A DNA stretch of 64,000 nucleotides, from the NCBI RefSeq assembly GCF_030466625.1, contig NZ_JADEVT010000004.1, forward strand, positions 1-64,000, in the 5' to 3' direction. The translations under genes were made by a program, and so were the position numbers. Below, in pieces: positions 36,058 to 53,662 of this stretch. Under the pieces are notes generated by a model that was given only the letters and a program-made list of their open reading frames with translations, was not told the origin of the DNA and made no database searches. Each line of letters begins with the position of its first letter. Position 1 is the stretch's first letter. This DNA comes from Nocardioides sp. ChNu-153. Lineage in GTDB: Bacteria > Actinomycetota > Actinomycetes > Propionibacteriales > Nocardioidaceae.

Positions 36058-36289
36058 GTGGAAGGGGGAACCTTTGCGGTGGACAGTTGGTCGGTCGGGC
36101 ACGCACAGCGGTCAGTCGTCACTACCGGTGATGACTGCCCCCGGGGCGGCTACGACCACCGCGGGGACGAGTAGCGAGCACGGGTCCACTCCGTCCGGGA
36201 CGCAGGCAGACCTCTGGCGCTCGGAAGAGCCTACGCCCGGGCTCCCCGCGGCGTCCAACCGGGTCCGCAGCGCTGCCTAGGGTGGGACG

Positions 36290-37135
36290 GTGCCCGACCA
36301 GGACCCCCACGAGCCCGACCACGACGCGGTCGTGACCCTCGCCCACCGCCGCCCCGTCGACGACGCGACCAGCCGACGCGCCAACCGCGCGGACTGGGAC
36401 CGCTCCGCCGACGACTACCAGGCCGAGCACGGGGCGTTCCTCGGCGACGACGGCTTCGTCTGGGGTCCGGAGGGCCGCACCGAGGACGAGCTGGCGCTGC
36501 TGGGCGACGTGGTCGACCGCGACGTCCTCGAGATCGGCGCCGGGGCGGCGCAGTGCTCCCGGTGGGTCGCCGCCCGCGGCGGCCGCCCCGTCGCCGTGGA
36601 CCTCTCCTTCCGCCAGCTGCAGCACGCGCGGCGCATCGACGCGGCGTTCGGCTCCGCCGTACCGCTCGTGCAGGCCGGGGCCACCGACCTGCCGTTCGCC
36701 GACCGCAGCTTCGACGTGGCCTTCGCCTCCTACGGCGCGCTGCCGTTCGTCGCCGACGCCGGACGCGCGCTCGCCGAGGTGGCGCGGGTGGTACGCCCGG
36801 GCGGGCGCTTCGTCTTCTCCCTCACCCACCCCGTGCGGTGGGCGTTCCCCGACGTGCCGGGGCCCGCGGGGCTCGTCGCCTCACAGGACTACTGGGACGA
36901 GACGCCGTACGTCGAGGTGGACGAGGCCAGCGGGGAGGTCGGGTACGTCGAGCACCACCGCACGCTCGGCACGTGGGTGCGCCTGCTGCACGCGAGCGGG
37001 CTGGCCCTCGTCGACCTCGTCGAGCCGACCTGGCCCGCGACGAACGACGCGACCTGGGCCGGCTGGTCGCCGCTGCGCGGCCGGGTGCTGCCCGGCACCG
37101 CGATCTTCGTGACGCTCGTCGCCGGGCGCGGCTGA
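36290..37135 (+). CDS. Class I SAM-dependent methyltransferase
   Basis: 281 residues from GTG 36290. Motif I is RDVLEIGAGAAQCSRWVAARGG near residue 78, motif II PVAVDLSFRQLQHAR, then LVQAGATDLPFADRSFDVAFASYGALPFV and the post-motif EVARVVRPGGRFVFSLTHP, all of the UbiE/Methyltransf_11 fold. The stretch ADWDRSADDYQAEHGAFLG near residue 30 is typical of the actinobacterial members. The substrate is unknown. The gene is divergent from rpsA; in mycobacteria a methyltransferase gene occupies the same place between rpsA and polA, which supports orthology. Confidence 0.88.
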   Translation: MPDQDPHEPDHDAVVTLAHRRPVDDATSRRANRADWDRSADDYQAEHGAFLGDDGFVWGPEGRTEDELALLGDVVDRDVLEIGAGAAQCSRWVAARGGRPVAVDLSFRQLQHARRIDAAFGSAVPLVQAGATDLPFADRSFDVAFASYGALPFVADAGRALAEVARVVRPGGRFVFSLTHPVRWAFPDVPGPAGLVASQDYWDETPYVEVDEASGEVGYVEHHRTLGTWVRLLHASGLALVDLVEPTWPATNDATWAGWSPLRGRVLPGTAIFVTLVAGRG

Positions 37136-37217: not shown

Positions 37218-38180
37218 TCACTTGACCAGCGAGGCGCCCCCGGTGTGCCCGGTGGTGCCGGTCGTGCCGTCGTGCCCGTCGCGGGTACGGCGACCGCCCC
37301 CGCGGGCGGTGACGAGCAGGAACGCGCCGGCCAGCAGCAGGATCAGGCCGAGGATGCCGCCCACGAGCGGGATCCACGTGCCGAGCAGCTTCAGCGTGCC
37401 GGCGTTGTCCTCGGCGCTGGCGACGTTCTTCTCCACCGTCTCGTCGGTGTAGGCCAGCTCGATGTCGAGGGCCACGGCCCCGGTCTCCGTCGTGCGGGTC
37501 TCGTCCTGCGTCTGCTTGATGATCGCGCCCGTGGTCGGGTCGATCCAGTAGACCTTGGTCTGGCTGTAGGTGCCGTCGACACCGTCGGCGATCTCGGTCT
37601 CGCGGTCCTGCACCGAGTACTCGAACTTGTAGGTGCGCAGGCCCTCGACCGACTCGGTGCCGACGTACTCCGCCGTCACGGCCTCGCCGAGGACGTCGTC
37701 CCAGACGTCGTAGTCCTTCTGCTCCACGCGGAAGGGCCACTTGTTGACGAGGCCCTCCTTCTGCTCGTAGTCGCCCGGGACGTACTCGCCGTTCTCGACC
37801 GCGACGGCGTCGCTGCGGTCGGTCGCGAACACGTCGGGCTCACCGATGGTGACGATGCGCTCGTCCTCGCCCGTCAGGCAGTACTCGTCCTCGTCGAGGT
37901 CCTGGTCGACCGCGAGGCAGGTGTAGGCCGCGAAGACGATGACGTCGTCGTCCGAGCGCTCGGAGTCGGCCTTCGTGACGTTGAGGGCCTTGACGGGCTG
38001 CGGCTCACCGTCGCCGACCTGCACGACCGCGCCGCTGGCCTCCCCGGACAGCGTGGTGCGGCTGTCGGTGTCGAGCGGCGTCCGCTCGGCGGCCGGCAGG
38101 CCCCACAGACGTGCCACCAAGGCGGCGATGACCAAGAAAGCACCCAGTCCCAGCAGTGCCCACGAACCGAACTTCCGCAT
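37218..38180 (-). CDS. DUF3068 (PorA-type family) envelope protein
   Basis: 320 residues from ATG 38180, with GGGAGGGAAGAG upstream. It has an N-terminal transmembrane helix (ALLGLGAFLVIAALVARLWG, residues 9-28) and a C-terminal one (WIPLVGGILGLILLLAGAFLLV, about 272-294), enclosing a 240-residue extracytoplasmic domain rich in acidic residues with two cysteines (AYTCLAV, EYCLTG). NKWPFRVEQKDYDVWDDVLG and VEGLRTYKFEYSVQDRE are family landmarks. DUF3068 includes mycobacterial Rv0227c, a membrane protein in the aftD region. It sits at the edge of the glycan locus, divergent from the next membrane protein. Confidence 0.88.
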   Translation of the reverse strand: MRKFGSWALLGLGAFLVIAALVARLWGLPAAERTPLDTDSRTTLSGEASGAVVQVGDGEPQPVKALNVTKADSERSDDDVIVFAAYTCLAVDQDLDEDEYCLTGEDERIVTIGEPDVFATDRSDAVAVENGEYVPGDYEQKEGLVNKWPFRVEQKDYDVWDDVLGEAVTAEYVGTESVEGLRTYKFEYSVQDRETEIADGVDGTYSQTKVYWIDPTTGAIIKQTQDETRTTETGAVALDIELAYTDETVEKNVASAEDNAGTLKLLGTWIPLVGGILGLILLLAGAFLLVTARGGGRRTRDGHDGTTGTTGHTGGASLVK

Positions 38181-38297
38181 CTCTTCCCTCCCACAGGAGC
38201 CACGATGGCCGCCGAAGGCTAGCAGCAAGTTACGCACCGGTCACCTCCAACTTGTGAAGTAGACCACGGCCTCTCCGAGCGTGGGAGACTCCCCGTC

Positions 38298-40145
38298 GTG
38301 CCCGGCGCGTCGTACCTCCCGTGGGCTAGACCTCGCACCGTCGCGCGGCTTTCCCTCGTGCTCGTCGCCGCCCACCTGGCGGTCCTGACCTGGGTGCTGC
38401 GCCGCTCCTGGTGGCACGGTCCGGACTACCGGCTCCTGGCCGACGCGCGCGCCGGGGTCGGTGTGCTCGACCCGGTCGACGGGCGTCTGTCGCCCCTCCT
38501 GCGTGGCGCGGCCGAGCTGGTCGCACGGGAGGACCCCGTGCGGTGGCCGCTGGCCGCCGGTCTCCTCGTCGGCGCCCAGCTGCTCGCCTCGCTCGCCGTG
38601 CTCGGGATGCTGCTCGCGGTCTGCGGTCGCCGCCCCCGGGTGGTCGTGCTCCTCGCCCTCTACCTCGCGTCCCCCCTCACCTGGGGCACGGGACCGTGGT
38701 GGGCCGCGGCGCTCACGACGTCCGTCCTCGTCGCCCTCGTGGCTGCGGCCCTGGCCGCGCGTTGGCGCGCGCTGCGCTCGGGCCGGCGCCGTTGGGACCT
38801 CGTCGCGGCGGCGTGCGCGGTGGTGGCCGTCCTCTGCTCCCCCGCCGCGCTCGCCCTCCCCGTGCTGCTGGGCGGCCTGGCCCTGGTCGCCCCGCGACCC
38901 CCCGGCGGAACGGACGGGACCGGCGGCGGGACCGACGGCGGGTGGCGTCGTACGGGCCTGGCGGCCGCGGCCGGGCTGCTCGTCGCCGTCGCGACCGCGG
39001 TGGCCCACGTCCTCCTCGTCCCCGGCAGCGCCCTGGGCGCGCCGACCGGGGCCGCGGGGCGGGTGGCGCTGACGGCCGTGGCGCACGCCTGGCTGCCCGG
39101 GCTCCTGGGCGGTCCGTGGACCTGGAGCGGCGCCGCCGCCACCCGCGTGCCCGACCCGCCGGTGGCGGTGGTCGTCGTCGCGGCGTCGCTCGTCGCCGCG
39201 GTCGTCGCTGGGCTGCTGCGCCGGCCCGGGCGCCGCGCCGCCGTCATCCTGCTGATCGGCTGGGTGGTCGCCGTGGCGGTGGTCGGCACCTTCCTGGGCG
39301 CCCCCACGGCGACCGCGCGGATCGAGGTGCCCGCCCAGCTCGTCGCCGTCCTCGTGCCCCCGACGCTCCTGACGGTCGGGGCGCTCCTCGGCGCCCGGCC
39401 GGCTCGGCACCCGGTCACCGCCCCGCACCTCCGGCCGGACCCCCGGCCGGACCCCCGGCCGGACCCCCGTGGCCGCCACCTGCTCAGCCACCTCGAGGAG
39501 CTGCGCCCCCTCGCGCCGTACGTCGTGCCCGCCGTCGCCACCCTCCTCGTCGTCGCGGCCCTCCTGTCCTCCGTGGCGTCGGTGCACGCCCGGCTCGCCG
39601 ACGACGAGGCCGTGGACTGGGCGCGCACCGCCCGCCAGGTGGCCGAGGAGCGTCCCGTCGTCGACCTCGCCGACGCCCCTGTCCCCCCGTTCGTCGACGT
39701 CCCCGCCGGCGACGGGCCGTTGCGGACGGCCACCGTGCTCGACCTGGTCACCGACAACGTCCGCGAGGCGGCGACCACGTCGAACCTCGTGGTCGTCACC
39801 GAGGACGGGGTGCTCCGGCCCGCCCGAGTCGTCGGCGTCGCGGCGTACCCCGTGCTGACGGGCACCTGCGGGTCCCTGGTCGCCGACGCACCGGTGCGGG
39901 TGCGGCTCCCGGAGGCCACGGGCCCGGGCACGCACTGGGTGGCGATCGGCTACCTGTCCGGCGCGAACCGCACCCTCGTCGTCCGCGCCGGCGACACCGA
40001 GGCCCAGGTGTCCATGCGGTCCGGCGCCAAGACCGTCTACGTTCGGGTCGAGGGCGACGTCCGTACGGTCGTGCTCGACCCCGTCACCCGCGAGGGCGGG
40101 CCCGCCACCTGCGTGGTCGGCCTGGACGTCGGGGACGCGGAGTGA
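38298..40145 (+). CDS. Polytopic membrane protein, probable GT-C-like envelope protein
   Basis: 615 residues from GTG 38298. About nine to eleven transmembrane segments span residues 15-430, followed by a C-terminal extracytoplasmic beta-rich domain (about 440-615) that includes LDLVTDNVREAATTSNLVVVTEDG and TLVVRAGDTEAQVSM, with two disulfide-capable cysteines (TGTCGS, ATCVVG). The first external loop contains WHGPDYRLLADARAG, acidic as in GT-C glycosyltransferases. A threefold RPDP repeat (39432-39467, 12 bases each) lies in a cytoplasmic loop. I do not recognise a named family. It is upstream of the acyltransferase gene by 14 bases, so the two form an operon. Confidence 0.72.
   Translation: MPGASYLPWARPRTVARLSLVLVAAHLAVLTWVLRRSWWHGPDYRLLADARAGVGVLDPVDGRLSPLLRGAAELVAREDPVRWPLAAGLLVGAQLLASLAVLGMLLAVCGRRPRVVVLLALYLASPLTWGTGPWWAAALTTSVLVALVAAALAARWRALRSGRRRWDLVAAACAVVAVLCSPAALALPVLLGGLALVAPRPPGGTDGTGGGTDGGWRRTGLAAAAGLLVAVATAVAHVLLVPGSALGAPTGAAGRVALTAVAHAWLPGLLGGPWTWSGAAATRVPDPPVAVVVVAASLVAAVVAGLLRRPGRRAAVILLIGWVVAVAVVGTFLGAPTATARIEVPAQLVAVLVPPTLLTVGALLGARPARHPVTAPHLRPDPRPDPRPDPRGRHLLSHLEELRPLAPYVVPAVATLLVVAALLSSVASVHARLADDEAVDWARTARQVAEERPVVDLADAPVPPFVDVPAGDGPLRTATVLDLVTDNVREAATTSNLVVVTEDGVLRPARVVGVAAYPVLTGTCGSLVADAPVRVRLPEATGPGTHWVAIGYLSGANRTLVVRAGDTEAQVSMRSGAKTVYVRVEGDVRTVVLDPVTREGGPATCVVGLDVGDAE
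39432..39467 (+). repeat. Three tandem copies of a 12-bp repeat
   Basis: CGGCCGGACCCC is repeated three times and encodes repeated Arg-Pro-Asp-Pro in the loop of the polytopic protein. Such in-frame repeats change length by slippage without breaking the gene. Confidence 0.8.
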
Positions 40146-40159
40146 GCAGGAGGACCCCC

Positions 40160-41374
40160 ATGACGACGAGCAGCACCGACCCCGTCACGACGACGGCGGC
40201 CGCGGCACCCGACCCGACGACGACCACGCCCGGCCGCGACTGGTTCCCGCTGCTCGACACGCTGCGGGCCGTCGGCGCCGTCGCGGTCATGACGACGCAC
40301 GTCGCGTTCCTGACGGGCTCGTACGGCGGGCAGGGGTACGACGGATGGCTGCTGGCCCGCCTCGACGTGGGCGTCGCCCTGTTCTTCGTGCTCTCCGGGT
40401 TCCTGCTCTCGCGCCCCTACCTCGCCACCGCCGTCGCGGGTCGACCCGCGCCGTCCCTCGCGCGCTACGCCCGCCGGCGCGTCTGGCGCGTGCTGCCCCT
40501 TGCGGTCGTGACGGTGGTCCTCGCCCTCGCTCTCCTCGAGACGAACCGCGGCGCCTCCTGGTACGACCGGCTGAGCGCCCTCACGCTGACCAGCACCTAC
40601 CTGCGCTCCTCGTTCCCCGCGGGCCTGACCCACCTGTGGAGCCTGGCCACCGAGATCACGTTCTACGTCGCGCTCCCCGCCCTCATGGTGCTCGTGGTGG
40701 GCCGCGGCCGACGGGCGCTGCGGGTCGGGCGGGTGGTGGCGCTCCTCGTCGGCAGCCTCGCGCTCTCCGTCGTGTGGTTCGCCCTGGCCGTCCCGGCGCT
40801 CGAGGGCGTGGGGGTGCCCTCGACCTGGCTCCCCGGCTACCTCGCCTGGTTCGCCGTGGGCATCGCCCTGGCCGCCGCGCGCGAGGCGGCCACGGCCGGG
40901 GCGGACGGCCGGGTGCTCAATGGGCTGCGGACGCTCGCCCTCCAGCCCGGCGCCTGCTGGACCGTGGCCGGCGGCCTGCTCCTGCTGTCGTCGACCCCGA
41001 TCGCCGGTCCCGCCACGCTGGCCCCCGTCGACCCGGAGCAGCACGTGGTGAAGGTCGTGCTCTACGCCGTCGCGGCCGGCCTCGTCGTCCTCACCGGCGT
41101 CTTCCCGACCACGACCCGCTACGCCGCCGCGATGGGCCACGCGGCGCCGCGCCGGCTCGGCGCCATCTCCTACGCCGTGTTCTGCCTCCACCTGCCCGTC
41201 ATCCACCTCGTCTTCTTCGCGACGGGCTGGGAGTTCTTCGGTGGGCGGTTCCTCGCCGTCTGGGTGTTGACGGCCGGGCTCACCTGGGTGGCCTCCGAGG
41301 CGGCGTACCGGTGGATCGAGGTGCCGGCCCAGCGGATCGGGCACGGGCGGCCCGTCAGGTCGCCCGGGTCCTGA
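40160..41374 (+). CDS. Acyltransferase family 3 membrane protein
   Basis: 404 residues from ATG 40160, preceded by AGGAGG. Ten or so transmembrane helices. The family motifs are FPLLDTLRAVGAVAVMTTHVAFL (the catalytic histidine at about 47), GVALFFVLSGFLLSRPYL, HLWSLATEITFYVALPALMVLV and ISYAVFCLHLPVIHLVFF. Enzymes of this family move acyl groups such as acetyl or succinyl onto glycans on the outer face of the membrane. In mycobacteria an acyltransferase (Rv0228) occupies the same neighbourhood. Its 3' end overlaps that of the convergent aftD by 20 bases. Confidence 0.88.
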   Translation: MTTSSTDPVTTTAAAAPDPTTTTPGRDWFPLLDTLRAVGAVAVMTTHVAFLTGSYGGQGYDGWLLARLDVGVALFFVLSGFLLSRPYLATAVAGRPAPSLARYARRRVWRVLPLAVVTVVLALALLETNRGASWYDRLSALTLTSTYLRSSFPAGLTHLWSLATEITFYVALPALMVLVVGRGRRALRVGRVVALLVGSLALSVVWFALAVPALEGVGVPSTWLPGYLAWFAVGIALAAAREAATAGADGRVLNGLRTLALQPGACWTVAGGLLLLSSTPIAGPATLAPVDPEQHVVKVVLYAVAAGLVVLTGVFPTTTRYAAAMGHAAPRRLGAISYAVFCLHLPVIHLVFFATGWEFFGGRFLAVWVLTAGLTWVASEAAYRWIEVPAQRIGHGRPVRSPGS

Positions 41375-44300
41375 CGGGCTCGTCGTCCGCGGGTGCGTCC
41401 GGCTCCAACGCCGTGCGCAGGAGGATCCCGGCCAGGGTGACGAGGGCGGCGTGCTGGGGCCACGCCGAGGCCCCGGCCCACCCGGAGGCCGAGCCCCAGG
41501 GCTGCAGCGCGTAGCCGACGGCGTCCGCGAACAGCGGGAGGGCCAGGACCCACGGGACCACCTCGTCCGCCTGCTCCCGCAGCACGACGGCAGCGACGGC
41601 GAGCGCGACGCCGACGGCCGCGCCGACCAGGACGGCGCCGGTGCCGGCCACGACACCGAGCAGGAGGAGCACCAGGGCGGCCGCCGCCCACCGGTGGTGG
41701 CCGCGCGGGCGCAGGGGTGCCGACGACGTCCGGGACGCGCGCCCGGCCCGCCGGCGCCAGGCCGGGAGGGAGCCCAGGACGACGATCCCCACCAGCACCA
41801 GCAGTGCGACGCCGCCCACCGCCATGCCGGCGCGGTAGGTCGTGTCGGGGGCGTAGCGGACCACGACGGCACCGGAGCCGTCCTCGGGCAACGCCCAGCC
41901 CTGCTGCCAGCCGTCGACGACGACGGGCTCCAGCGCATCGCCGCCCTGCGTGGCCGACCACCCCGGGTTGACGTTCTCCCGGACGACCGCCAGGCGGTCG
42001 CCGTCCCGGACGTCGAGGGTGCGCGTCGCGGAGTCCGCGCTGATCCCCCCGGCTGACGGGACGGGGCTGGTGGAGGCGGTGCGGGCGCCGACCCGCGTCA
42101 GCACCACGCCGTCGACGGCGAAGGCCGCACCGTCCTCGACGACCACCTCGTTGCGGCCGGCGGTGAGGACCACCCGCGCGTCGTCGCCGCAGGGCAGCGC
42201 CTCGGCGGTCCGGGCGCCGGCGGCGTCCGCCCCCGACGTGACGACCTCGGTCGGGACGCGCACGTCGCCGACGACGAGGGTCGGGCCGGTGCCGCAGCCC
42301 AGTGCCCGGGGGGTCGTGGGCAGTGCGACGGGCAGGTCGGGGGCACCCTCCAGCCGCAGCTCGCTGATGCCGATGGACGGGCCGTCGTCCCCCGCCCCCG
42401 GGGCGCTGACGTCGCTCTCGGCCCGGACGACGGCGACGGTCAGCCGCTCGGCCGAGACAGGCGGGAACGTGGCCCGTCCGTCACGGAGCTCGACCGTGGT
42501 GCGTCCGCCGGGCCACGTGAGCGCCAGCTCCGTCGGCGCCCGGGCCGCGACACCGTCGTCGAGGCGCACCTCGACCTCCGTGACGACGCGCGGGCCGAGG
42601 AAGGTCAGGTCGAGCTCCGGGCGGAGGTCCTCGGGGTCGGCCAGCCAGGTGGTGCCGCGGAGGCCGTCGACGGCGGCGAGCGCCGACGCCCGGGGGTCCG
42701 GGACCGCCAGCGAGGACGCGGAGACCTGGACCGTGCCGTCGTCGCGCGTCAGCGCACCCAGGACGTCGCCGGCCCGGGGGCGGACGGTGAGACGCGGCAC
42801 GTACTCGTCGGTCGTGGGGACGGTGACGACCCGGCGCACGGCACCGGGCTCCTCGTCGGCCACGACGGCCTCGGCAGCACACCGCACGGCGCTGCCGACC
42901 TCGGCGCAGCCGTCGCGGGCGTCCCGGTCGGCGCGCAGCGCCACCTGGTCGGGGGCACCCCAGGCGCCGGGGAGCTCGGGCAGCTCGTACCACCGCTCGA
43001 CGACCGTGCCGGGCACCACGACCTCCGCCAGCGAGATGTCCTGCTCCCCCGCCGGCGAGGCGTCCTCGACGCGCAGCCAGCCGACGGGACCGTCGGCGTC
43101 GACCCGCACGTCGACGCTGTCGCCCGGGGGCAGGGGGATCTCCTCCGACGCCCCGCCCGGCCACCGCAGGCGCACGACCTGCTCGGGCGCGGCGTCGGCC
43201 CCGCCGGTCAGGCGCACCTCGGCGACCCGGGACGTCGACAGCGGCTCCTCGAGGTCGACCTGCCACCACGCACGGCCCGCGGTGCCCGCGTCCGCCGTCC
43301 ACGACGACCCCGGATCACCGTCGAGCGCCGCGAAGGGCAGCGCGCCGCGCCGCGCCGCCCCGAACCCGCCCGCGTCGGAGACGGACGACGACGCCGACAC
43401 GCGGGCCGCCCCGGTGAGGGACGCGGTCGTCGACCAGCGGTCGTCGGTGTCGAGGACGTAGTCGCGGGTCGGGCTCGTGGTGGTGCGCGGCTCGTCCCCC
43501 GTCAGCACGGGCGACGAGGCGTCGTCGATGCGCGCGAAGTCGCGCTCCCGGGCCCGCAGGCCGTCGGTCAGCACGACGCGGGAGCCGGCGAGCGCGCCGT
43601 CCAGCTCCTGCTCGGTCTCCTGCGGCACGTCGGCCGCCAGCACGGTGGGGCGGTCGCCGACGACTCCCAGGTCGAGGAGGTCCGGCAGGTCCTCCGGGCC
43701 ACCGACGACCACGTCGGGCGCCGCAGCACTGGTGAGGGTGGTGGCGACGTCGGGGACCTCGAACACCTCGATGGCCGGGTGGAACTCCCGCCAGCCCCGG
43801 TCGAGGACGAGCCGGTCGCCGTCGTCGGCCTCGAGCACCGTCTCACCGCCGCGGTCGGGTCCGAACGTCGCGACCACCTCGAGACCGGGCGACGACTCGA
43901 GGGCCTGGTGCACCAGCGCGGTCGGCGGCTGGTCGCCGTCGGGCACCAGGTCGTTGCGCACGACCACGTGGCGCACGCCGGCCCGCTGCAGGTACGCCGT
44001 CAGTCCGGCGCCGCCCTCACCCTGGGCCAGGCGCTGCTCGACGCCGTCGAGCATGCGGATCGTGCCCGGCGGGGTCAGCGGGATGACGTTGCGCACCGCC
44101 CACCGCGAGTCGGCCTGGAACTGCAGTGGCTCGTCGCGCGGGCTGCCCCAGTCGTAGTCGGCGAAGCGGGACCCCGGCGCCAGCAGGGCCACCGCACCGC
44201 CGTCCGGGCCGGAGCCGTCGTCCTGCTCGGCGAGCCAGGCGGCGGCCTCCCCCCAGTAGTCGGGGACCCCGAACGTCTCCCCCGTCGGTGCGAGCCGGCC

Positions 44301-45572
44301 CAGCAGGGCCGGCATGGCCGCACCGAGGACCACGACCACCGTGGTCACCAGCACCGCGCTCCGCTCGACGACCCGGCCGGAGCCCGCCGAGCGGGGGGCG
44401 CGGCGTACCGCGTGGTCGAGGAGGAACGCCAGGCCGACGACCAGCGGGAGGCGGACGAGCGGGTCGAACTTGTGCACGTTGCGCAGGGGCGCGAGGGCGC
44501 CGTCGAGGGCCTGGGCGAGGTCGCCGGCGAACCAGCCCGACACCGCGCCGGCGTGGCCGGCGGTGACCATGAGGAGGCCCAGCGCCAGCCCGCTCGCCAG
44601 GAACGTGCGGTGCGGCGTGCGCCGGTCGAGGAGGCCGGCGGCGCCCACGAGCAGCACCACGCCGCTGTTGAGCGCGAGGTAGGACGTGGTCACGAGGTCG
44701 TTGCCCGCCCGGGACCGGACGTCGAGGTAGGGCACCCAGTTGGAGGTGCCGCGCAACGCGTCGAAGACGGTCGTCGGGAACGTGGTCGCGCCGCTCGTCT
44801 CGATGAAGTCGAGGAACGGCGGGCTGTAGGCGCCCATGAGGAAGAGCGGCACCAGCCACCACAGCGTGCCGAGCAGGGTGAACAGCGGCCACCAGAGCAT
44901 GAGCGCGCGACGACGCGGTCCCGGCGCCCGGGTGAGCAGCCAGAGCGCGCCGAGCGGGATGACCGCGAAGGTCGCCGCGGCGTTGACGCCGCCGACCATC
45001 GCCACCCCGAGGGCGGCCAGCGCCGCGGCCCGGCGGGGGCTGCCGCGCTCGCTGCCGACCACCAGCGCGAGCAGCACCCAGGGCGCGAGCGCGCTCGGCC
45101 AGCCCTCGATGGAGATGGGCCCGAGCACGGTGAGCAGGCGCGGGGACAGGGCGTACGCCGTCGCACCGAGGAGCACCGCGAGGTCCGAGCGGACCCCCAG
45201 CGCGCGCAGCAGGAGCGCCGTACCGACCAGGGCGGTGCACAGCACGAGCGCCCACCACAGGCGCTGCACGACCCAGCCGTCGAGACCGATCGCGTCGCCC
45301 AGCCAGAAGAAGGGGCCCATCGGCCACAGGTAGCCGTAGGCCTGGTTCTGCAGCTGCCCGAACGTGCCCTCCGCGTCCCACAGGTGCAGCGCCCGGGCGA
45401 GGAACCCGCCCGGGTCCGCGACGAGGTCGAACTTGGTGTCCGAGACCAGCAGCCCCGGTGACTGCACGAACGCGAGACCCGTGAGCAGCACGCAGGCGGC
45501 GACGAGCCGCAGCCGCAGGCGGGAACCGGCGCGCCCTGCGGGGCCCGCCTCCCCCGGTACGGCGGTGCTCAC
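41355..45572 (-). CDS. aftD: Alpha-(1->3)-arabinofuranosyltransferase AftD
   Basis: 1405 residues from GTG 45572, which overlaps the upstream methyltransferase stop as GTGA. The N-terminal half is a GT-C membrane enzyme with about eleven helices. Its first external loop carries the catalytic acidic pair in LLVSDTKFDLVADPGGFL. The long extracytoplasmic part (about 480-1290) contains discoidin/F5-8-type carbohydrate-binding modules, e.g. FAALDGDPGSSWTADAG...WWQVDLEEP and ALAAVDGLRGTTWLADPEDLRPELDLTF. A final set of four helices follows. In mycobacteria AftD adds arabinose from decaprenyl-phosphoarabinose to arabinogalactan and lipoarabinomannan. The length and order match that enzyme. Confidence 0.92.
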   Translation of the reverse strand: MSTAVPGEAGPAGRAGSRLRLRLVAACVLLTGLAFVQSPGLLVSDTKFDLVADPGGFLARALHLWDAEGTFGQLQNQAYGYLWPMGPFFWLGDAIGLDGWVVQRLWWALVLCTALVGTALLLRALGVRSDLAVLLGATAYALSPRLLTVLGPISIEGWPSALAPWVLLALVVGSERGSPRRAAALAALGVAMVGGVNAAATFAVIPLGALWLLTRAPGPRRRALMLWWPLFTLLGTLWWLVPLFLMGAYSPPFLDFIETSGATTFPTTVFDALRGTSNWVPYLDVRSRAGNDLVTTSYLALNSGVVLLVGAAGLLDRRTPHRTFLASGLALGLLMVTAGHAGAVSGWFAGDLAQALDGALAPLRNVHKFDPLVRLPLVVGLAFLLDHAVRRAPRSAGSGRVVERSAVLVTTVVVVLGAAMPALLGRLAPTGETFGVPDYWGEAAAWLAEQDDGSGPDGGAVALLAPGSRFADYDWGSPRDEPLQFQADSRWAVRNVIPLTPPGTIRMLDGVEQRLAQGEGGAGLTAYLQRAGVRHVVVRNDLVPDGDQPPTALVHQALESSPGLEVVATFGPDRGGETVLEADDGDRLVLDRGWREFHPAIEVFEVPDVATTLTSAAAPDVVVGGPEDLPDLLDLGVVGDRPTVLAADVPQETEQELDGALAGSRVVLTDGLRARERDFARIDDASSPVLTGDEPRTTTSPTRDYVLDTDDRWSTTASLTGAARVSASSSVSDAGGFGAARRGALPFAALDGDPGSSWTADAGTAGRAWWQVDLEEPLSTSRVAEVRLTGGADAAPEQVVRLRWPGGASEEIPLPPGDSVDVRVDADGPVGWLRVEDASPAGEQDISLAEVVVPGTVVERWYELPELPGAWGAPDQVALRADRDARDGCAEVGSAVRCAAEAVVADEEPGAVRRVVTVPTTDEYVPRLTVRPRAGDVLGALTRDDGTVQVSASSLAVPDPRASALAAVDGLRGTTWLADPEDLRPELDLTFLGPRVVTEVEVRLDDGVAARAPTELALTWPGGRTTVELRDGRATFPPVSAERLTVAVVRAESDVSAPGAGDDGPSIGISELRLEGAPDLPVALPTTPRALGCGTGPTLVVGDVRVPTEVVTSGADAAGARTAEALPCGDDARVVLTAGRNEVVVEDGAAFAVDGVVLTRVGARTASTSPVPSAGGISADSATRTLDVRDGDRLAVVRENVNPGWSATQGGDALEPVVVDGWQQGWALPEDGSGAVVVRYAPDTTYRAGMAVGGVALLVLVGIVVLGSLPAWRRRAGRASRTSSAPLRPRGHHRWAAAALVLLLLGVVAGTGAVLVGAAVGVALAVAAVVLREQADEVVPWVLALPLFADAVGYALQPWGSASGWAGASAWPQHAALVTLAGILLRTALEPDAPADDEPVRTRAT

Positions 45573-46318
45573 CGCTTGCGCAGCACGATCACGAGGTTCC
45601 ACGTGACCACCTCCCGCAGCACGGGCACGCGGACGATCCAGCGGGCCCACCACGGGTGGTAGCGCGGCAGGATCGCGAGGACCTCGCCGGCCTCCTGGCG
45701 CGCCGCCCACCGCAGGCCCTGCGCGACGGTCACGGCGAAGAGCGACTCGCCGTACTTGTTCTTGGGCTCGTGGCCGTGGGTACGGCGGTAGCGCCGCCGC
45801 GCCCGGGTGCCGCCGAGGTAGTGCCACGGCGCGGTCTCGTGGCCGCCCCAGGGGCCCCACCACACCGTCCACGACAGGAAGACGACCCCGCCGGGGCGCG
45901 TCACGCGCAGCATCTCGTCGGCCATCGTCCACGGCTCCGGCACGTGCTCGAGCACGTTGGAGGAGTAGCAGACGTCGACGACGCCGTCGCCGAACGGCAG
46001 GTCCATCCCGCTGCCGATCACCGTGCGGGGGTGGATGTCACCCGCGCCGGCCAGCTCGCCGACGTCGGCGTCGAGGGCGACGTACGTCGCTCCCGCCCCC
46101 TCGAAGGCCCGGCGGAAGTAGCCGGGCCCGCCGCCGACGTCGAGCAGCACGGCACCGTCGAGGTCGGCGTGCTCGGCGAGCTGGGCCACCGAGTCCTCCG
46201 CCAGCGCGGTGTAGAAGCGGGCCGGGTCGGGCTGCTCGTAGCGGAACTCGCGCAGCAGCCGCACCGAGCGCCGCAGCGTCGCGCGACGGGGACCGGGGCG
46301 GTGCGGGGGCCTGGGCAC
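45569..46318 (-). CDS. Class I SAM-dependent methyltransferase (Rv0224c-like)
   Basis: 249 residues from GTG 46318; a GTG at 46348 is an alternative. Begins with a basic stretch, then LREFRYEQPDPARFYTALAEDSV. Motif I is GAVLLDVGGGPGYFRRAFEGAG; VIGSGMDLPFGDGVVDVCYSSNVLEHVPEPW follows. The later segment LSWTVWWGPWGGHETAPWHYLGG and a C-terminal tryptophan-rich helix (YHPWWARWIVRVPVLREVV) suggest a membrane-associated enzyme acting on a lipid or lipid-linked glycan. It is coupled to aftD by a 4-base overlap and is divergent from the GT4 gene, as for Rv0224c and Rv0225. Confidence 0.88.
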   Translation of the reverse strand: MPRPPHRPGPRRATLRRSVRLLREFRYEQPDPARFYTALAEDSVAQLAEHADLDGAVLLDVGGGPGYFRRAFEGAGATYVALDADVGELAGAGDIHPRTVIGSGMDLPFGDGVVDVCYSSNVLEHVPEPWTMADEMLRVTRPGGVVFLSWTVWWGPWGGHETAPWHYLGGTRARRRYRRTHGHEPKNKYGESLFAVTVAQGLRWAARQEAGEVLAILPRYHPWWARWIVRVPVLREVVTWNLVIVLRKR

Positions 46319-46415
46319 CCGCCGGAGACTACCCGTGACGGCCCGCACGTTACCGACCGGTTGGGATAACCTCGCGCGGCGGCCGGGGAGGGTCGCTGAG
46401 AGACGAGGGAGTGCA

Positions 46416-47534
46416 GTGCGCGGACGGCACGTCGTGTTCACCAGCTGGCGGGACACGCTCAACCCGGAGGGGGGCGGCGCCGAGCGCTACCTGGAGCAGG
46501 TGGCGACCGGTCTCGCCGCCCAGGGGGCGCGGGTGACGGTGTTCAGCGCCGCCTACCCCGGCGCCCCGCGGCGCGAGGTCCGCGACGGCGTGCACCACGT
46601 GCACGCGGGCACGAAGACCACGGTCTACCTGTGGGGCTTCTGGCTCCTGCTCACGGGCCGGCTCGGTCGTCCCGACGTGGTCGTCGACGTGCAGAACGGG
46701 CTGCCGTTCCTCACCCGCCTCGCGGTGCGCTGCCCGGTCGTCGTGCTGGTGCACCACGTGCACCGCGAGCAGTGGCCGGTCGTCTACCCCGGCGTGACGG
46801 GGCGCTTCGGGTGGTGGGTCGAGCGCTGGCTCGCGCCGCGGGTCTACCGCCGCTCCCGCTACGTCGCCGTCTCCGAGGCCACCCGCGACGAGCTCGCCCA
46901 GCTGGGCGTCGACCGCGAGCGGGTGACGGTGGTGCACAACGGCACCGACACGGCCCCGCCGACCGAGGTGCAGCGCGCGGACGTCCCCACGATCTGCGTC
47001 GTGGGCCGGCTCGTGCCGCACAAGCAGGTGGAGCACGCCATCGACGCGGTCGCCCTGCTGCGGGCCGCCCTGCCCGACCTGCGCCTGGTCGTCGTCGGCT
47101 CCGGCTGGTGGAGCGACGAGCTGGTCGACCACGCGGAGGCCCGTGGCGTCGCCGACGCGGTCGTGTTCGAGGGCCAGGTCGACGAGCAGCGCAAGCACGA
47201 GCTCTACGCGTCGTCGTGGGTCATGGCGGTGCCCTCGCTCAAGGAGGGCTGGGGCCTCGTCATCGTCGAGGCCGGGTCGCACGGGGTGCCGACGGTGGCC
47301 TACGCGGCCGCGGGGGGCACGCGGGAGTCCGTGCTGGACGGCGAGTCGGGCCTGCTCGTCGACACCTTCGACGAGTTCACCGAGGCGCTACGCCGGGTGC
47401 TGACGGACGAGCAGCTGCGGGGACGGCTGGGCGCCGGCGCGCGCCTGCGCGCCGGCGAGTTCACCTGGGAGCACGCGCAGTCGACGTTCGCGCGCGTGCT
47501 CGCCGGTGAGATCAGTTGTCGCCGTACTCGATGA
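46416..47534 (+). CDS. GT4 family glycosyltransferase
   Basis: 372 residues from GTG 46416, with GAGGGA a few bases upstream. A GT-B fold: N-terminal GGGAERYLEQVATGLAAQG binds the acceptor side, and the C-terminal donor site has VGRLVPHKQVEHAIDAVALL and the EX7E signature in LKEGWGLVIVEAGSHGVPTVAY. The enzyme is cytoplasmic and probably acts on a lipid-linked sugar early in glycan assembly. A mycobacterial homologue (Rv0225) neighbours the same methyltransferase. The 3' end overlaps the convergent DUF2613 gene by 23 bases. Confidence 0.9.
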   Translation: MRGRHVVFTSWRDTLNPEGGGAERYLEQVATGLAAQGARVTVFSAAYPGAPRREVRDGVHHVHAGTKTTVYLWGFWLLLTGRLGRPDVVVDVQNGLPFLTRLAVRCPVVVLVHHVHREQWPVVYPGVTGRFGWWVERWLAPRVYRRSRYVAVSEATRDELAQLGVDRERVTVVHNGTDTAPPTEVQRADVPTICVVGRLVPHKQVEHAIDAVALLRAALPDLRLVVVGSGWWSDELVDHAEARGVADAVVFEGQVDEQRKHELYASSWVMAVPSLKEGWGLVIVEAGSHGVPTVAYAAAGGTRESVLDGESGLLVDTFDEFTEALRRVLTDEQLRGRLGAGARLRAGEFTWEHAQSTFARVLAGEISCRRTR

Positions 47535-47676
47535 TCGAGCTGGTCGGAGCCTGCGAGTCGACCGGAGAGTCCTCCGGCGCCGCCGTCTGCGAGTTGACCA
47601 CGCCGACGACCGTGACTGCTGCCACCGAACCGCCGACCACGAGCGACACGATCGTGCCGATGATTCCCGTACCCAT
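47512..47676 (-). CDS. DUF2613-type small membrane protein (Rv0236A-like)
   Basis: 54 residues from ATG 47676, with a perfect GAGGGAGG site 6 bases upstream; ends at TGA 47512-47514. A single hydrophobic segment (IIGTIVSLVVGGSVAAVTVVGVV, residues 5-27) is followed by a short acidic external tail (QTAAPEDSPVDSQAPTSSIIEYGDN). DUF2613 proteins are tiny membrane proteins encoded beside aftD in mycobacteria; this position and shape match. Function unknown; a role as partner of the glycan enzymes is inferred from context alone. Confidence 0.8.
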   Translation of the reverse strand: MGTGIIGTIVSLVVGGSVAAVTVVGVVNSQTAAPEDSPVDSQAPTSSIIEYGDN

Positions 47677-47748
47677 GTGAGACCTCCCTCGTCCGTCGGG
47701 GACTGTACCAGCGAGTAGAGCGCGCGTCCTGATCCTCAGCGAGGTTCG

Positions 47749-49566
47749 TCACACGTCGCGGGGCCGGACCGCGGGGCGCTCGTCGCGCCGGTCTCGGACG
47801 GCCCGTGCCGCGGCGCGCGCCCCGGCCCCGGCGGCGAGCAGCGGCAGCGCACCGAAGGCGGTCCAGGCCACCGCGAGCGCGGCCGTCGCCACCGGCCCCG
47901 GTGCGTCGTCGGGCCGCGCGGCCACCGCGCCGTCGAGCCGCGCCAGCACCAGCTCGTCACCGGCGGCGACCACGGTCTCCTCCAGCGTCGGCGCCAGGCG
48001 CTCGGGCGCGGCGTCGACGTCGGGCCCGCGGGCGCGCAGGACGTAGGCGACGCCGAGCTCCCGCAGGGCGGTGGTCCGGTGCGCGGCGCCGTCGAGCGCC
48101 AGGGCCGCCGCCACCCGGGCCGCCCGGGGGTCCTCCCCCGCGACCGTCCGCCCGCCCACCACGAGCGCGTCGTCGGTGACGACGTCGGCGCCCCCCACCA
48201 CCCGGGGGACCGGGTCCAGCACGGTGCGCCCGCCGTTCCACGCGGGGGCCCGGAAGGCGGCGAACGGCAGGCTGACGACGAGCCCGTCCTCCAGGTCGCG
48301 GGCGGCCGCGTCGGTGCGCCAGGCCTGCGCCGCCGCGGGGTACGCCGCGGGGTAGCGCTGGCCGCGCAGGTCCCCGGTCGCTCCCCCGGCCAGCCCCGGC
48401 AGCAGCGCGACGGGCAGGAGCGCCGCAGCGACCGTCAGCGCCACCCGACCCGGTACGGCGGGACGCACCCGCGCGAGCCCCTCGCCCGCGGCGGCCGCGA
48501 GACCCACCACCGCCGCCGGCACGACGAGCCCGAGCAGCCGGGCCCCGTCCCGGGCGACACCGCCGCCCGGCACGTGCGTCGCCAGCCACGCGTTCACCCC
48601 CGGCGCCGCCCACGACACGAGCGCGACGGCCCACGCCACGCCGGCTGCGCCGACCAGGGCCCAGCGCTCCGCGGCCGGGACACCGGCCCGTCCGGCGAGC
48701 ACCACGGCCACGCCCCCGAGCACCACGGCGGCCCACAGCACCGAGGCCACGAGGCCCAGGCCCTGCGGGACGACGGCGGTGTTCCAGATGCCGCCCAGGC
48801 CGGCCACGGCCAGGGGTGTCGGCACGTCGTCACCGCGGGCGGCGAAGACCTCCGCCGCGACGCGCGCCGCGACCGGGTCGCTGCGCGTCACCCCGCCGGC
48901 GAGCCCCCCCGCGACCACCCACGGCGCGTTGGCCGCGACGACCACCGCGACCAGCCCCGCCCACGCCCGTCGACCGGCGCGGCCCGCCACCCCCACGAGG
49001 AGGGCGAGGGCGACCGCCGTACCCAGCCCGGCCGACGCGCTCAGCGACCCGACCGCCGCCAGGGCGGCCACGTGGGGCGGCAGGCCACCGCCCTCCGCGC
49101 GCAGGCGCCGACCGGCGAGCAGCAGCCAGGGCAGCACGCCGTACCCGAGCAGCACGGGCCAGTGCCCGACCAGCAGGCGCTCGGCGACGAAGGGGTTCCA
49201 GGTGGCGACTCCGGCGACCAGCAGCCGGGCGGCCAGGGGGGCGTCGCGCGCCAGCCGGTGCGCACCCGCGCCCGCGGCGACGAGCGCACCCAGCAGCACG
49301 ACGCGCTGCAGCACGGCCCCGGGCACCAGCTCGTCGAGCAGCGCCACCACCTGGTCCGACGGCACGGCCCGCGGCACGCCCTCCACCCACCCCCACCCCG
49401 CGGAGGTCACCGCGAGGTCGGGCATCCAGACCATGTCGTAGGAGAGGACGAACCCCGGGGCGAGCGCGGGCCCCAGCGCCAGCAGCGCGAGCGCGAGCAC
49501 GACGGTGTCGAGCAGCACGGCGGCGGGAGGTGCCGCACGTCCTCGCCCCGCTCCGCGCAGCGCCAC
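47749..49566 (-). CDS. Large polytopic membrane protein, GT-C-like
   Basis: 605 residues from GTG 49566, with GGAGG 9 bases upstream. Twelve or so hydrophobic segments. The first external loop has LAPGFVLSYDMVWMPDLAV, acidic and aromatic as in GT-C enzymes such as AftD; GVATWNPFVAERLLVGHWP is the next conserved segment. A soluble C-terminal part (about 430-560) includes LVVSLPFAAFRAPAWNGGRT. The arrangement and neighbours match the mycobacterial membrane protein Rv0226c. A glycosyltransferase role is inferred from fold resemblance, not demonstrated. It is divergent from the flippase gene across 38 bases. Confidence 0.75.
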   Translation of the reverse strand: MALRGAGRGRAAPPAAVLLDTVVLALALLALGPALAPGFVLSYDMVWMPDLAVTSAGWGWVEGVPRAVPSDQVVALLDELVPGAVLQRVVLLGALVAAGAGAHRLARDAPLAARLLVAGVATWNPFVAERLLVGHWPVLLGYGVLPWLLLAGRRLRAEGGGLPPHVAALAAVGSLSASAGLGTAVALALLVGVAGRAGRRAWAGLVAVVVAANAPWVVAGGLAGGVTRSDPVAARVAAEVFAARGDDVPTPLAVAGLGGIWNTAVVPQGLGLVASVLWAAVVLGGVAVVLAGRAGVPAAERWALVGAAGVAWAVALVSWAAPGVNAWLATHVPGGGVARDGARLLGLVVPAAVVGLAAAAGEGLARVRPAVPGRVALTVAAALLPVALLPGLAGGATGDLRGQRYPAAYPAAAQAWRTDAAARDLEDGLVVSLPFAAFRAPAWNGGRTVLDPVPRVVGGADVVTDDALVVGGRTVAGEDPRAARVAAALALDGAAHRTTALRELGVAYVLRARGPDVDAAPERLAPTLEETVVAAGDELVLARLDGAVAARPDDAPGPVATAALAVAWTAFGALPLLAAGAGARAAARAVRDRRDERPAVRPRDV

Positions 49567-49604
49567 GTGCCCGCACCTCCACCTCGTCCTCTAGGCTCCG
49601 CCGG

Positions 49605-50927
49605 GTGAGCGGATCGAGGGGCACGCTACGGGAGCTGCTGCGCACCGGCGCCGGCGTGGCGATCGCCATGGCGGTGATGAACGTCGGCACGTACGGGTTC
49701 ACGCTCGTCGCCGCCCGCGTGCTCGGCCCGCGGGAGTACAGCGCCGTCGCCGCCCTCATGGGCATCCTGCTCATCGTCAACGTGCTGTCCGTCGGCCTGC
49801 AGGCCACGGGGGCCCGGCAGGTGGCCGCCTCCCCCGACGACCGCGCCACCATCGAGAACCGCGTGCTGCGCACCACCGACCGTTCCGCGTGGGCGCTCGG
49901 GGCCGTGTGCCTGCTGCTGAGCCCGGTGGCGACCGTGCTGCTCGACCTCGACTCGTGGCTGCCCGCCGTGCTCGTGGCCCTCACGGCGGTGCCGCTGACC
50001 AAGATGGGCGGGCAGGCCGGCATCTTCCAGGGCGAGAAGGAGTGGGCGCCGCTCGCCGGGATCTACCTCGGCATGGGGCTCGGCCGCCTCGTGTTCGGCT
50101 GCCTCGGGCTGCTCGTGCAGCCGGACGCCACCGGCGCCATGGCCGGCGTGCTCGTCGGCGCCGTCGTCCCGGTGCTCGTCGGCGGGTGGGCGCTGCGCCG
50201 TCGGCGCGGCGCGCGGCCGGGCCCGGCCGACGTGCGCTCGGTGCTGCGCGAGGTCTCGCACAACTCCCACGCCCTGCTGGCCTTCTTCGCCCTCACCAAC
50301 GCCGACGTCGTGCTCGCCCGCGTCACCCTCGACTCCCACGAGGCCGGCCTGTACGCCGGTGGCCTCATCCTCACCAAGGCCGTGCTGTTCCTGCCGCAGT
50401 TCGTCGTCGTCATCGCGTTCCCGTCGATGGCCGCCGAGGGCGCGCGCCGGATGTACCTCAAGGGCATCGGGCTGGTCTTCGTCATGGGCGTGCTCGCCAC
50501 CGCCGGCGCCTTCGTGCTCGACGGCCTGGCCGTGACGTTCGTCGGCGGCGCCGAGTACGCCGAGATCCGCTCGACCGTCTGGATCTTCGCGGCGCTCGGC
50601 ACCGTGCTGGCGATGACGCAGGTGATGGTCTACGAGGTCGTCGCCCGCCAGCACCGCCGCGCCGTGTACGTCGTGTGGGCGGGCCTGCTCGTGCTGGGCG
50701 GGCTCGCGCCCCTGGCCGAGCACGGCACGGCGCTGCTCGAGATCGTGCTCGCCGTCAACGTCGTCGTGCTGTTGGCCCTGCTCGCCGTCGCGCTGCTGCG
50801 CCCCGCGGACGGGGACGCAGCAGCGGACGGGGACGCAGCCGCGCCGGACGCAGCCGCGCCGGGCTCAGTGGGCGGCGGCGTGCCAGCTGACGCCGGTGCC
50901 GACCGAGACGTCGAGCGGCACCCGTAG
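49605..50927 (+). CDS. Polysaccharide/lipid-linked oligosaccharide flippase (Wzx-like, MOP superfamily)
   Basis: 440 residues from GTG 49605. About 12 transmembrane helices: TLRELLRTGAGVAIAMAVMNVGTYGFTLVAARVLGPREYSAVAAL at the start is the characteristic first-helix pair of polysaccharide flippases. ALLAFFALTNADVVLARVTLDSHEAGLYAGGLILTKAVLFLPQFVV is the typical helix 7 region. It is expected to move lipid-linked glycan across the membrane for extension by the GT-C enzymes here. Its low-complexity end (DGDAAADGDAAAPDAAAPGS) overlaps the 3' end of polA by 63 bases. Confidence 0.87.
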   Translation: MSGSRGTLRELLRTGAGVAIAMAVMNVGTYGFTLVAARVLGPREYSAVAALMGILLIVNVLSVGLQATGARQVAASPDDRATIENRVLRTTDRSAWALGAVCLLLSPVATVLLDLDSWLPAVLVALTAVPLTKMGGQAGIFQGEKEWAPLAGIYLGMGLGRLVFGCLGLLVQPDATGAMAGVLVGAVVPVLVGGWALRRRRGARPGPADVRSVLREVSHNSHALLAFFALTNADVVLARVTLDSHEAGLYAGGLILTKAVLFLPQFVVVIAFPSMAAEGARRMYLKGIGLVFVMGVLATAGAFVLDGLAVTFVGGAEYAEIRSTVWIFAALGTVLAMTQVMVYEVVARQHRRAVYVVWAGLLVLGGLAPLAEHGTALLEIVLAVNVVVLLALLAVALLRPADGDAAADGDAAAPDAAAPGSVGGGVPADAGADRDVERHP

Positions 50928-53591: not shown

Positions 53592-53662
53592 GCCCGCGAC
53601 CCTACCGCCGCGCGCCGACCACCCCACGCGGGCGGGCGCCGGAGCACCGGCATGATGAACCC

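Follow-up and report, generated by a model that had tools for sequence, protein, structure and literature searches.

A putative envelope-glycan assembly locus around AftD and MmpA in Nocardioides sp. ChNu-153, a genome in which known arabinose-donor genes were not found

Gene content of the locus

The window analysed in this study is a stretch of 64,000 nt from contig NZ_JADEVT010000004.1 of Nocardioides sp. ChNu-153, and its block of interest, at positions 37218 to 50927, encodes the GT-C glycosyltransferase AftD, an MmpA-family protein and further proteins possibly involved in cell-envelope synthesis. The block is flanked by rpsA (34576-36102, minus strand) and polA (50865-53627, minus strand). 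On the basis of family searches and GC content by codon position, the gene order was PgfA (-), P615 (+; a 615-residue protein), acyltransferase-3 (+), AftD (-), methyltransferase (-), GT4 (+), DUF2613 (-), MmpA (-), and flippase-like protein (+), as listed in Table 1. Open reading frames (ORFs) with coding-type third-position GC were found for PgfA, P615, AftD, the methyltransferase, GT4, and MmpA; the GC listing did not cover the acyltransferase, flippase-like, and DUF2613 genes, which lie inside longer ORFs or are too short.

All the genes that a first-pass annotation of the sequence had placed in this cluster were present, the assignment of the flippase being weak and that of DUF2613 marginal. 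Its comparison with the mycobacterial set Rv0224c-Rv0236c was borne out by gene content and clustering. The same annotation had placed the lineage outside the mycolate group, in agreement with an excerpted description of the order Propionibacteriales, in which "mycolic acids are absent" (PMC6113628).

Table 1. Features of the block between rpsA and polA in the window.
Feature	Position	Strand	Evidence
PgfA/LmcA-like protein (DUF3068 = Pfam PorA)	37218..38237	-	PF11271 199 bits; NCBIfam NF053601 174 bits, cut-off 160; GC3 (third-position GC) 0.94
P615 (615 residues): probable GT-C membrane part + C-terminal carbohydrate-binding-like sandwich	38298..40145	+	family alignment, hhalign, model
Acyltransferase-3, positional TmaT/Rv0228 counterpart	40160..41374	+	PF01757 86.4 bits; start ATG 40160
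AftD, GT-C + carbohydrate-binding modules, ~1405 residues	41355..45572	-	PF11847 773.6 bits; PF24607 38.9 bits; PDB 6w98 602 bits
MtrP/Rv0224c-like S-adenosylmethionine (SAM) methyltransferase	45569..46348, start approximate (longest ORF 45569-46462)	-	PF08241 61.7 bits
GT4 glycosyltransferase	46335..47534	+	PF00534 130.9 bits; PF13439 92.1 bits
DUF2613 small protein, 54-codon ORF	47512..47676	-	PF11021 22.2 bits, cut-off 22.1
MmpA/GT4 gap	47535..47748	.	holds DUF2613 ORF only; cassette site in three relatives
MmpA/Rv0226c-like protein, 605 residues, putative GT-C fold (model)	47749..49566	-	NCBIfam NF053599 353 bits, cut-off 210
Oligosaccharide-flippase-like membrane protein	49623..50927, start approximate	+	13-row family A6

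AftD, MmpA and P615

AftD contained the PF11847 GT-C domain and C-terminal carbohydrate-binding modules (PF24607), and was aligned end to end with AftD of Mycobacterium abscessus (PDB 6w98; query residues 18-1388). The start of the ORF as listed lies too far upstream: with the end of the methyltransferase gene at 45569, an in-frame GTG at 45572 gives a protein of about 1405 residues. The D-T-K motif in the first outer loop was present in 29 of 30 aligned rows, with D-T-R in the remaining one (L090). In two genomes from this genus, AftD has additional AftD-like genes next to it (L083:1341-8965 in G125 and L088:1469-9144 in G161).

The two other large proteins had both been described as GT-C-like in the first-pass annotation, with a comparison to GT-C structures as the suggested check. 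For the 605-residue protein this description held, and it also proved not to be an unassigned protein, as it scored above the curated cut-off of the NCBIfam MmpA model. A profile search of the PDB by sequence returned nothing for MmpA at E<=10. A structural model built from 11 sequences (predicted local distance difference test, pLDDT, 57.7; predicted template modelling score, pTM, 0.59) had AftD (6w98) as its best structural match, with a VIA Z of 17.4 and a root-mean-square deviation of 4.9 over 495 residues, followed by chains of oligosaccharyltransferase (OST), PMT, AftA, ArnT, AftB, Emb, PimE and similar proteins. Because AftD was the best match, the GT-C membrane fold is assigned to MmpA on this low-confidence model. 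In Foldseek, one match was obtained at E<=0.001 (8agb, an oligosaccharyltransferase), AftA being next at 2.2e-3, and hhalign gave 98.8% for MmpA against AftD and <=1% for two membrane-protein controls. D44 in the first outer loop was present in all 30 aligned rows, two of which (L002 and L095) represent one genome; D71 and E129-R130 were also conserved in the 30 rows, including a mycobacterial-type row. D44 is thus a candidate catalytic residue, and an active glycosyltransferase would be the simplest reading of the modelled MmpA.

For the 615-residue protein, P615, a GT-C fold is only probable. Neither Pfam nor NCBIfam gave a match, and a PDB profile search by sequence gave nothing at E<=10. 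In hhalign, P615 gave 77% to AftD and 74% to MmpA, whereas two membrane controls gave 0.2% and 2%. For a model made from four sequences (pLDDT 58.5, pTM 0.52), the first 33 VIA rows were GT-C-type enzymes or complexes containing one, counting the PIG-U and STT3 chains, which we take to be GT-C-like. The best Z was 13.8, and since helical models can reach VIA Z 13-14 according to the tool's own note, this value lies within reach of chance. No Foldseek match was obtained at E<=0.001. The C-terminal part of the model formed a sandwich like those of CBM6/35/36 (Z up to 9.5), and P615 probably consists of a GT-C membrane part and a carbohydrate-binding-like domain, as judged from the model. Among 17 aligned rows, the Asp after the first helix (D43) and two C-terminal cysteines were invariant; the acidic motif at this Asp was D-D in 16 rows and P-D in the window copy. 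Three further relatives were found beyond these rows (L008, L010, L082). Three tandem P615-type genes occurred between PgfA and the acyltransferase in L079 (1804-7450) and L080 (12624-18240), whereas most other loci had one.

The NCBIfam names of MmpA ("trehalose lipid delivery") and PgfA ("lipid trafficking") imply a different role for the locus, namely transport of trehalose-linked or similar lipids. Both models were matched above their curated cut-offs, and, in the excerpts of the two reports, transport of trehalose monomycolate (TMM) was tied to MmpA in Corynebacterium glutamicum (PMC8698533) and to PgfA, which binds TMM, in Mycobacterium smegmatis (PMC9678360). This role is nevertheless improbable here. 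The order is described as free of mycolic acids in the excerpt cited above, the mycolate-synthesis genes themselves not having been searched for in the genome, and MmpA has a GT-C fold on its model. Further, four of the six MMPL-family places in the genome (one of them, L101, over part of its ORF) were scanned as candidates for MmpL3 and rejected, as all were far below the MmpL3 cut-off of 1400 bits (best 234.9 bits). The two unscanned places begin, by eye, like AcrB-type and SecD-type proteins. A reference mmpL3 was also sought beside the locus of G241, and none was recognised in the stretches taken. MmpA is therefore more probably a glycosyltransferase than a carrier of trehalose lipids.

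Arabinose-donor genes in the genome and genus

The first-pass annotation had proposed an arabinan-containing or other exported glycan, and had regarded the lack of a decaprenyl-phosphoarabinose pathway in the genome as the genomic half of what would speak against it. In the genome of strain ChNu-153, which is 99.96% complete, Emb (PF04602) had no match, and neither DprE1 nor decaprenyl-phosphoryl-5-phosphoribose (DPPR) synthase (UbiA, Rv3806c type) was found with protein and profile queries. The best match to the DprE1 profile scored 53.9 bits and covered model positions 61-206 only, and the best match to the UbiA profile scored 19.1 bits. Across 98 genomes of the genus, scores were two-peaked for both profiles: DprE1 had 11 full-length matches at 459-652 bits, the next being 92.6 and lower, and UbiA had 15 at 155-477 bits, the next being 52 and lower. 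The genome studied here fell in the low peak both times. Matches to PF04030 were rejected as DprE1: this family was matched in all seven genomes searched, and the seven matches translated, out of 16, read by eye as lactone or alditol oxidases, for which reason PF04030 was replaced by the DprE1 protein and profile queries.

DPPR synthase without DprE1 was observed in G134, G344, G364, and G375 among the 98 genus genomes, in G294 of the class-wide sample described below, and at loci L081 and L082. Such genomes may form decaprenyl-phosphoryl-ribose and a ribofuranose-containing glycan. Another genome of the same order, G196, had matches for DprE1 and DPPR synthase and none for AftD, MmpA, or PorA.

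Because the key genes were not found, the sugar used here is not expected to be arabinofuranose supplied by the known decaprenyl-phosphoryl-arabinose (DPA) route. The arabinan part of the earlier proposal thus did not hold for this genome, and its broader part, another glycan not yet described, is the best reading.

In related genomes, the donor genes form a DprE2-DprE1-UbiA cassette, which accompanied the block in six of the compared loci (L078, L079, L080, L091, L092, and L093). In three of the six, all from members of the same family (L078, L079, and L080), the cassette lies in the gap between MmpA and GT4, with the neighbour order on both sides as in the window apart from the triplicated P615 of L079 and L080; in contrast, it is missing from the gap of the window. 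In L091 the cassette is placed between P615 and PgfA, the flippase is its neighbour in L092 and L093, and G060 carries it far from the locus. UbiA alone was found in the MmpA/GT4 gap of L081 and elsewhere in L082. References for AftA, AftB, and DprE2 had no match at the loci of cassette-less relatives; the window genome itself was not searched with them. In the class-wide sample, DprE1 was located <=20 kb from AftD or MmpA in 18 of the 35 non-Emb genomes with both DprE1 and MmpA, and farther away or on another contig in the remaining 17. These cassette positions, together with the count of 18, indicate that many lineages have the known donor genes in this neighbourhood, and since the genes adjoin the locus there, the arabinan idea is plausible for other non-mycolate genomes.

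To examine AftD in the presence and absence of the donor genes, seven donor-minus rows were compared with seven donor-plus rows, both groups being hand-picked. Among commonly conserved positions (at least six of seven rows in each group), 144 were identical and none was different, so that no damage to AftD is apparent in the donor-minus rows. This conservation argues against decay, and would leave two options, namely that the donor was never arabinose alone or that a second DPA route exists. In an AftD tree, all seven rows of the window clade, the window included, retained AftD and had neither donor gene. Loss of the cassette within this clade would be the simpler reading of this tree only, which, because its 19 rows were hand-picked and the donor-plus rows outside the family were chosen by the analyst, does not decide between loss and gain.

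The second of these options corresponds to a locus that makes arabinan, with AftD using DPA made here by a route not yet recognised. It would account for a full-length AftD orthologue with an unchanged core, and for the cassette in the loci of relatives and the proximity of DprE1 to AftD or MmpA in half of the genomes concerned (18/35). We nevertheless regard it as unlikely, as DprE1, DPPR synthase, and Emb were not found, and the excerpted whole-cell sugars of three other Nocardioides strains, whose donor-gene status is not known, do not list arabinose, two more strains being given as "ND" (PMC12890105).

Distribution of the module

The class-wide sample comprised 296 genomes, which are related and not independent. 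Emb was found in 27 of them, all belonging to one family (f5), leaving 269 non-Emb genomes. In the whole sample, AftD was found in 150 genomes, MmpA in 116 (112 above the cut-off), and PorA, the Pfam family of PgfA, in 146; DprE1 was found in 106 (E<=1e-30), including three poor rows with 29-36% identity (G047, G135, and G044), and DPPR synthase in 109 (E<=1e-20).

AftD, MmpA, and PorA occurred together in 78 of the non-Emb genomes; among these 78, neither DprE1 nor DPPR synthase was found in 42, both in 33, and one in 3. MmpA was found in 89 of the 269 non-Emb genomes, where it was distributed with PorA as follows: both 83, MmpA alone 6, PorA alone 36, and neither 144 (Fisher p 7e-33, calculated on related genomes). 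Of 81 non-Emb genomes, 77 had MmpA and AftD <=16 kb apart (median 4.2 kb), and the other four had the genes on different contigs; this count took 81 of the 82 genomes with both genes, G162 being left out as the place of its AftD was unlisted. As the genes are neighbours in 77 of 81 genomes, their clustering is not due to chance. PorA occurred without AftD in 20 of 146 genomes and MmpA without AftD in 7 of 116. AftD without MmpA was observed in many genomes of families f17 and f18.

Of the 296 genomes, 112 had a match above the cut-off of the model NF053599, named "trehalose lipid delivery protein", whereas Emb was present in only 27, so this name reaches beyond the Emb-bearing family. The family model carries it into genomes without mycolates, which should serve as a warning.

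Retention of the triple in 42 genomes without donor genes also bears on whether the locus is a relic, drifting and productless since the donor cassette was lost. The P-D of the window P615 where other rows have D-D, and the empty gap where three relatives carry the cassette, would fit such a history. Against it, the ORFs of PgfA, P615, AftD, the methyltransferase, GT4, and MmpA are uninterrupted and have third-position GC of the coding type, the AftD core is unchanged, and AftD is kept throughout the donor-less window clade. We consider a relic very unlikely.

Other genes of the block

The best segments of the GT4, methyltransferase, and acyltransferase-3 proteins showed 49%, 56%, and 34% identity, respectively, to their counterparts in the mycobacterial-type locus L094. 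Rv0225 is presumably a GT4 enzyme, and we take the mycobacterial set to include a DUF2613 gene. The methyltransferase matched general SAM methyltransferase models in Pfam and NCBIfam with no sign of the membrane type suggested in the first-pass annotation. A further methyltransferase gene was located between PgfA and rpsA (36290-37135), and several relatives also have a match to it close to PgfA. The DUF2613 call is marginal, as its score barely exceeds the cut-off. PgfA may, by analogy, function in periplasmic handling of lipids or glycolipids.

The flippase suggested earlier was recognisable in relatives, PF01943 matching in 4 of the 13 rows of family A6 (best 4e-12), whereas the window copy had no relevant Pfam match and gave nothing in a PDB profile search by sequence at E<=1. 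Its identity as a flippase is weak and would follow from the matches of its relatives. The position of this gene and of GT4 next to GT-C enzymes and an acyltransferase would also suit a locus for assembly of a wall-teichoic or teichuronic-type polymer, in which AftD-type enzymes add side chains. None of the genes in the block was recognised as one for a teichoic backbone, the rest of the genome not having been searched for such genes, and we assign this possibility a low probability.

Proposed function

We lean towards reading the block as a locus for assembly of an actinobacterial envelope glycan, independent of mycolic acids and fed here by another polyprenyl-phosphate sugar. The product is probably some other, still undescribed, surface glycan. 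From the directly observed gene content, neighbourhood, and conservation, the donor genes not found, and the MmpA fold on its low-confidence model, we infer the following order of steps, together with the activity of MmpA and P615 and the nature of donor and product. A lipid-linked glycan would be made in the cytoplasm with the help of GT4 and the methyltransferase, and the flippase would carry it outward. On the outer face, AftD, MmpA, and probably P615 would lengthen or branch the glycan from a polyprenyl-phosphate sugar. Acyltransferase-3 may acylate the exported glycan, and PgfA may handle the lipid-bearing product.

Several points weigh against this proposal. An unchanged AftD is equally compatible with continued use of DPA from an unknown route, and the module is not fixed, as 41 of 150 AftD genomes have no MmpA and 24 of 150 no PorA. 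The window P615 has lost one of two acidic residues common to the other rows, and the models of MmpA and P615 are of low confidence.

A wider proposal, which we consider rather unlikely as it stands, is that MmpA is a working glycosyltransferase everywhere, that the AftD-MmpA-PgfA module is older than mycolates, and that the true donor of AftD, in mycolate bacteria as well, is a polyprenyl-phosphate sugar different from arabinose or used in addition to it. If this is true, the arabinan and mycolate phenotypes of Corynebacteriales would be secondary effects on a shared glycan that has gone unrecognised.

Comparison with known systems

Work on MmpA, PgfA, TmaT, and AftD has treated them as components of the mycobacterial wall, with roles deduced from mycolate bacteria alone. 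Among the top-ranked papers in open-licence literature, which leaves out most subscription titles, none treated MmpA as a GT-C enzyme or described the locus from bacteria other than the mycolate group. MmpA (NCgl2761/Rv0226c) was published as having no homology outside corynebacteria and mycobacteria, according to the excerpted report (PMC8698533); this restriction does not hold, as 89 of 269 non-Emb genomes matched. In the excerpts of other reports, lipomannan and lipoarabinomannan were altered in C. glutamicum that had lost its counterpart of PgfA (PMC9678360), and the binding partners of MmpL3 include AftD, TmaT, and Rv0227c, the last of which pairs also with TmaT and AftD (PMC6656915). The published roles of PgfA, AftD, and TmaT are consistent with a shared glycan or lipid step.

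The variables are separated in this genus, which is free of mycolates and retains the set although most sampled members have no donor genes, so that the donor of AftD and the chemical role of MmpA become directly testable in harmless bacteria. A natural paired experiment is offered by its species that have DprE1 (11/98) and DPPR synthase (15/98) and those that do not. The locus of N. alkalitolerans DSM 16699, a culturable strain without DprE1 and UbiA, corresponds to that of the window.

AftD of M. abscessus (6w98) and AftD of the window are homologous end to end and share the D-T-K motif; in contrast, the window genome cannot supply the donor assumed for the former through the known route. 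Like the aftD-tmaT locus (C. glutamicum cg3161-cg3168; mycobacterial Rv0224c-Rv0236c), as described in the excerpt of PMC7775120, the window has AftD, acyltransferase-3, PgfA/LmcA, MmpA, a glycosyltransferase, and a methyltransferase in one cluster. Unlike that locus, it belongs to an order without mycolates and to a genome in which Emb, DprE1, and DPPR synthase were not found; it also contains the additional P615 and flippase-like genes and is placed between polA and rpsA.

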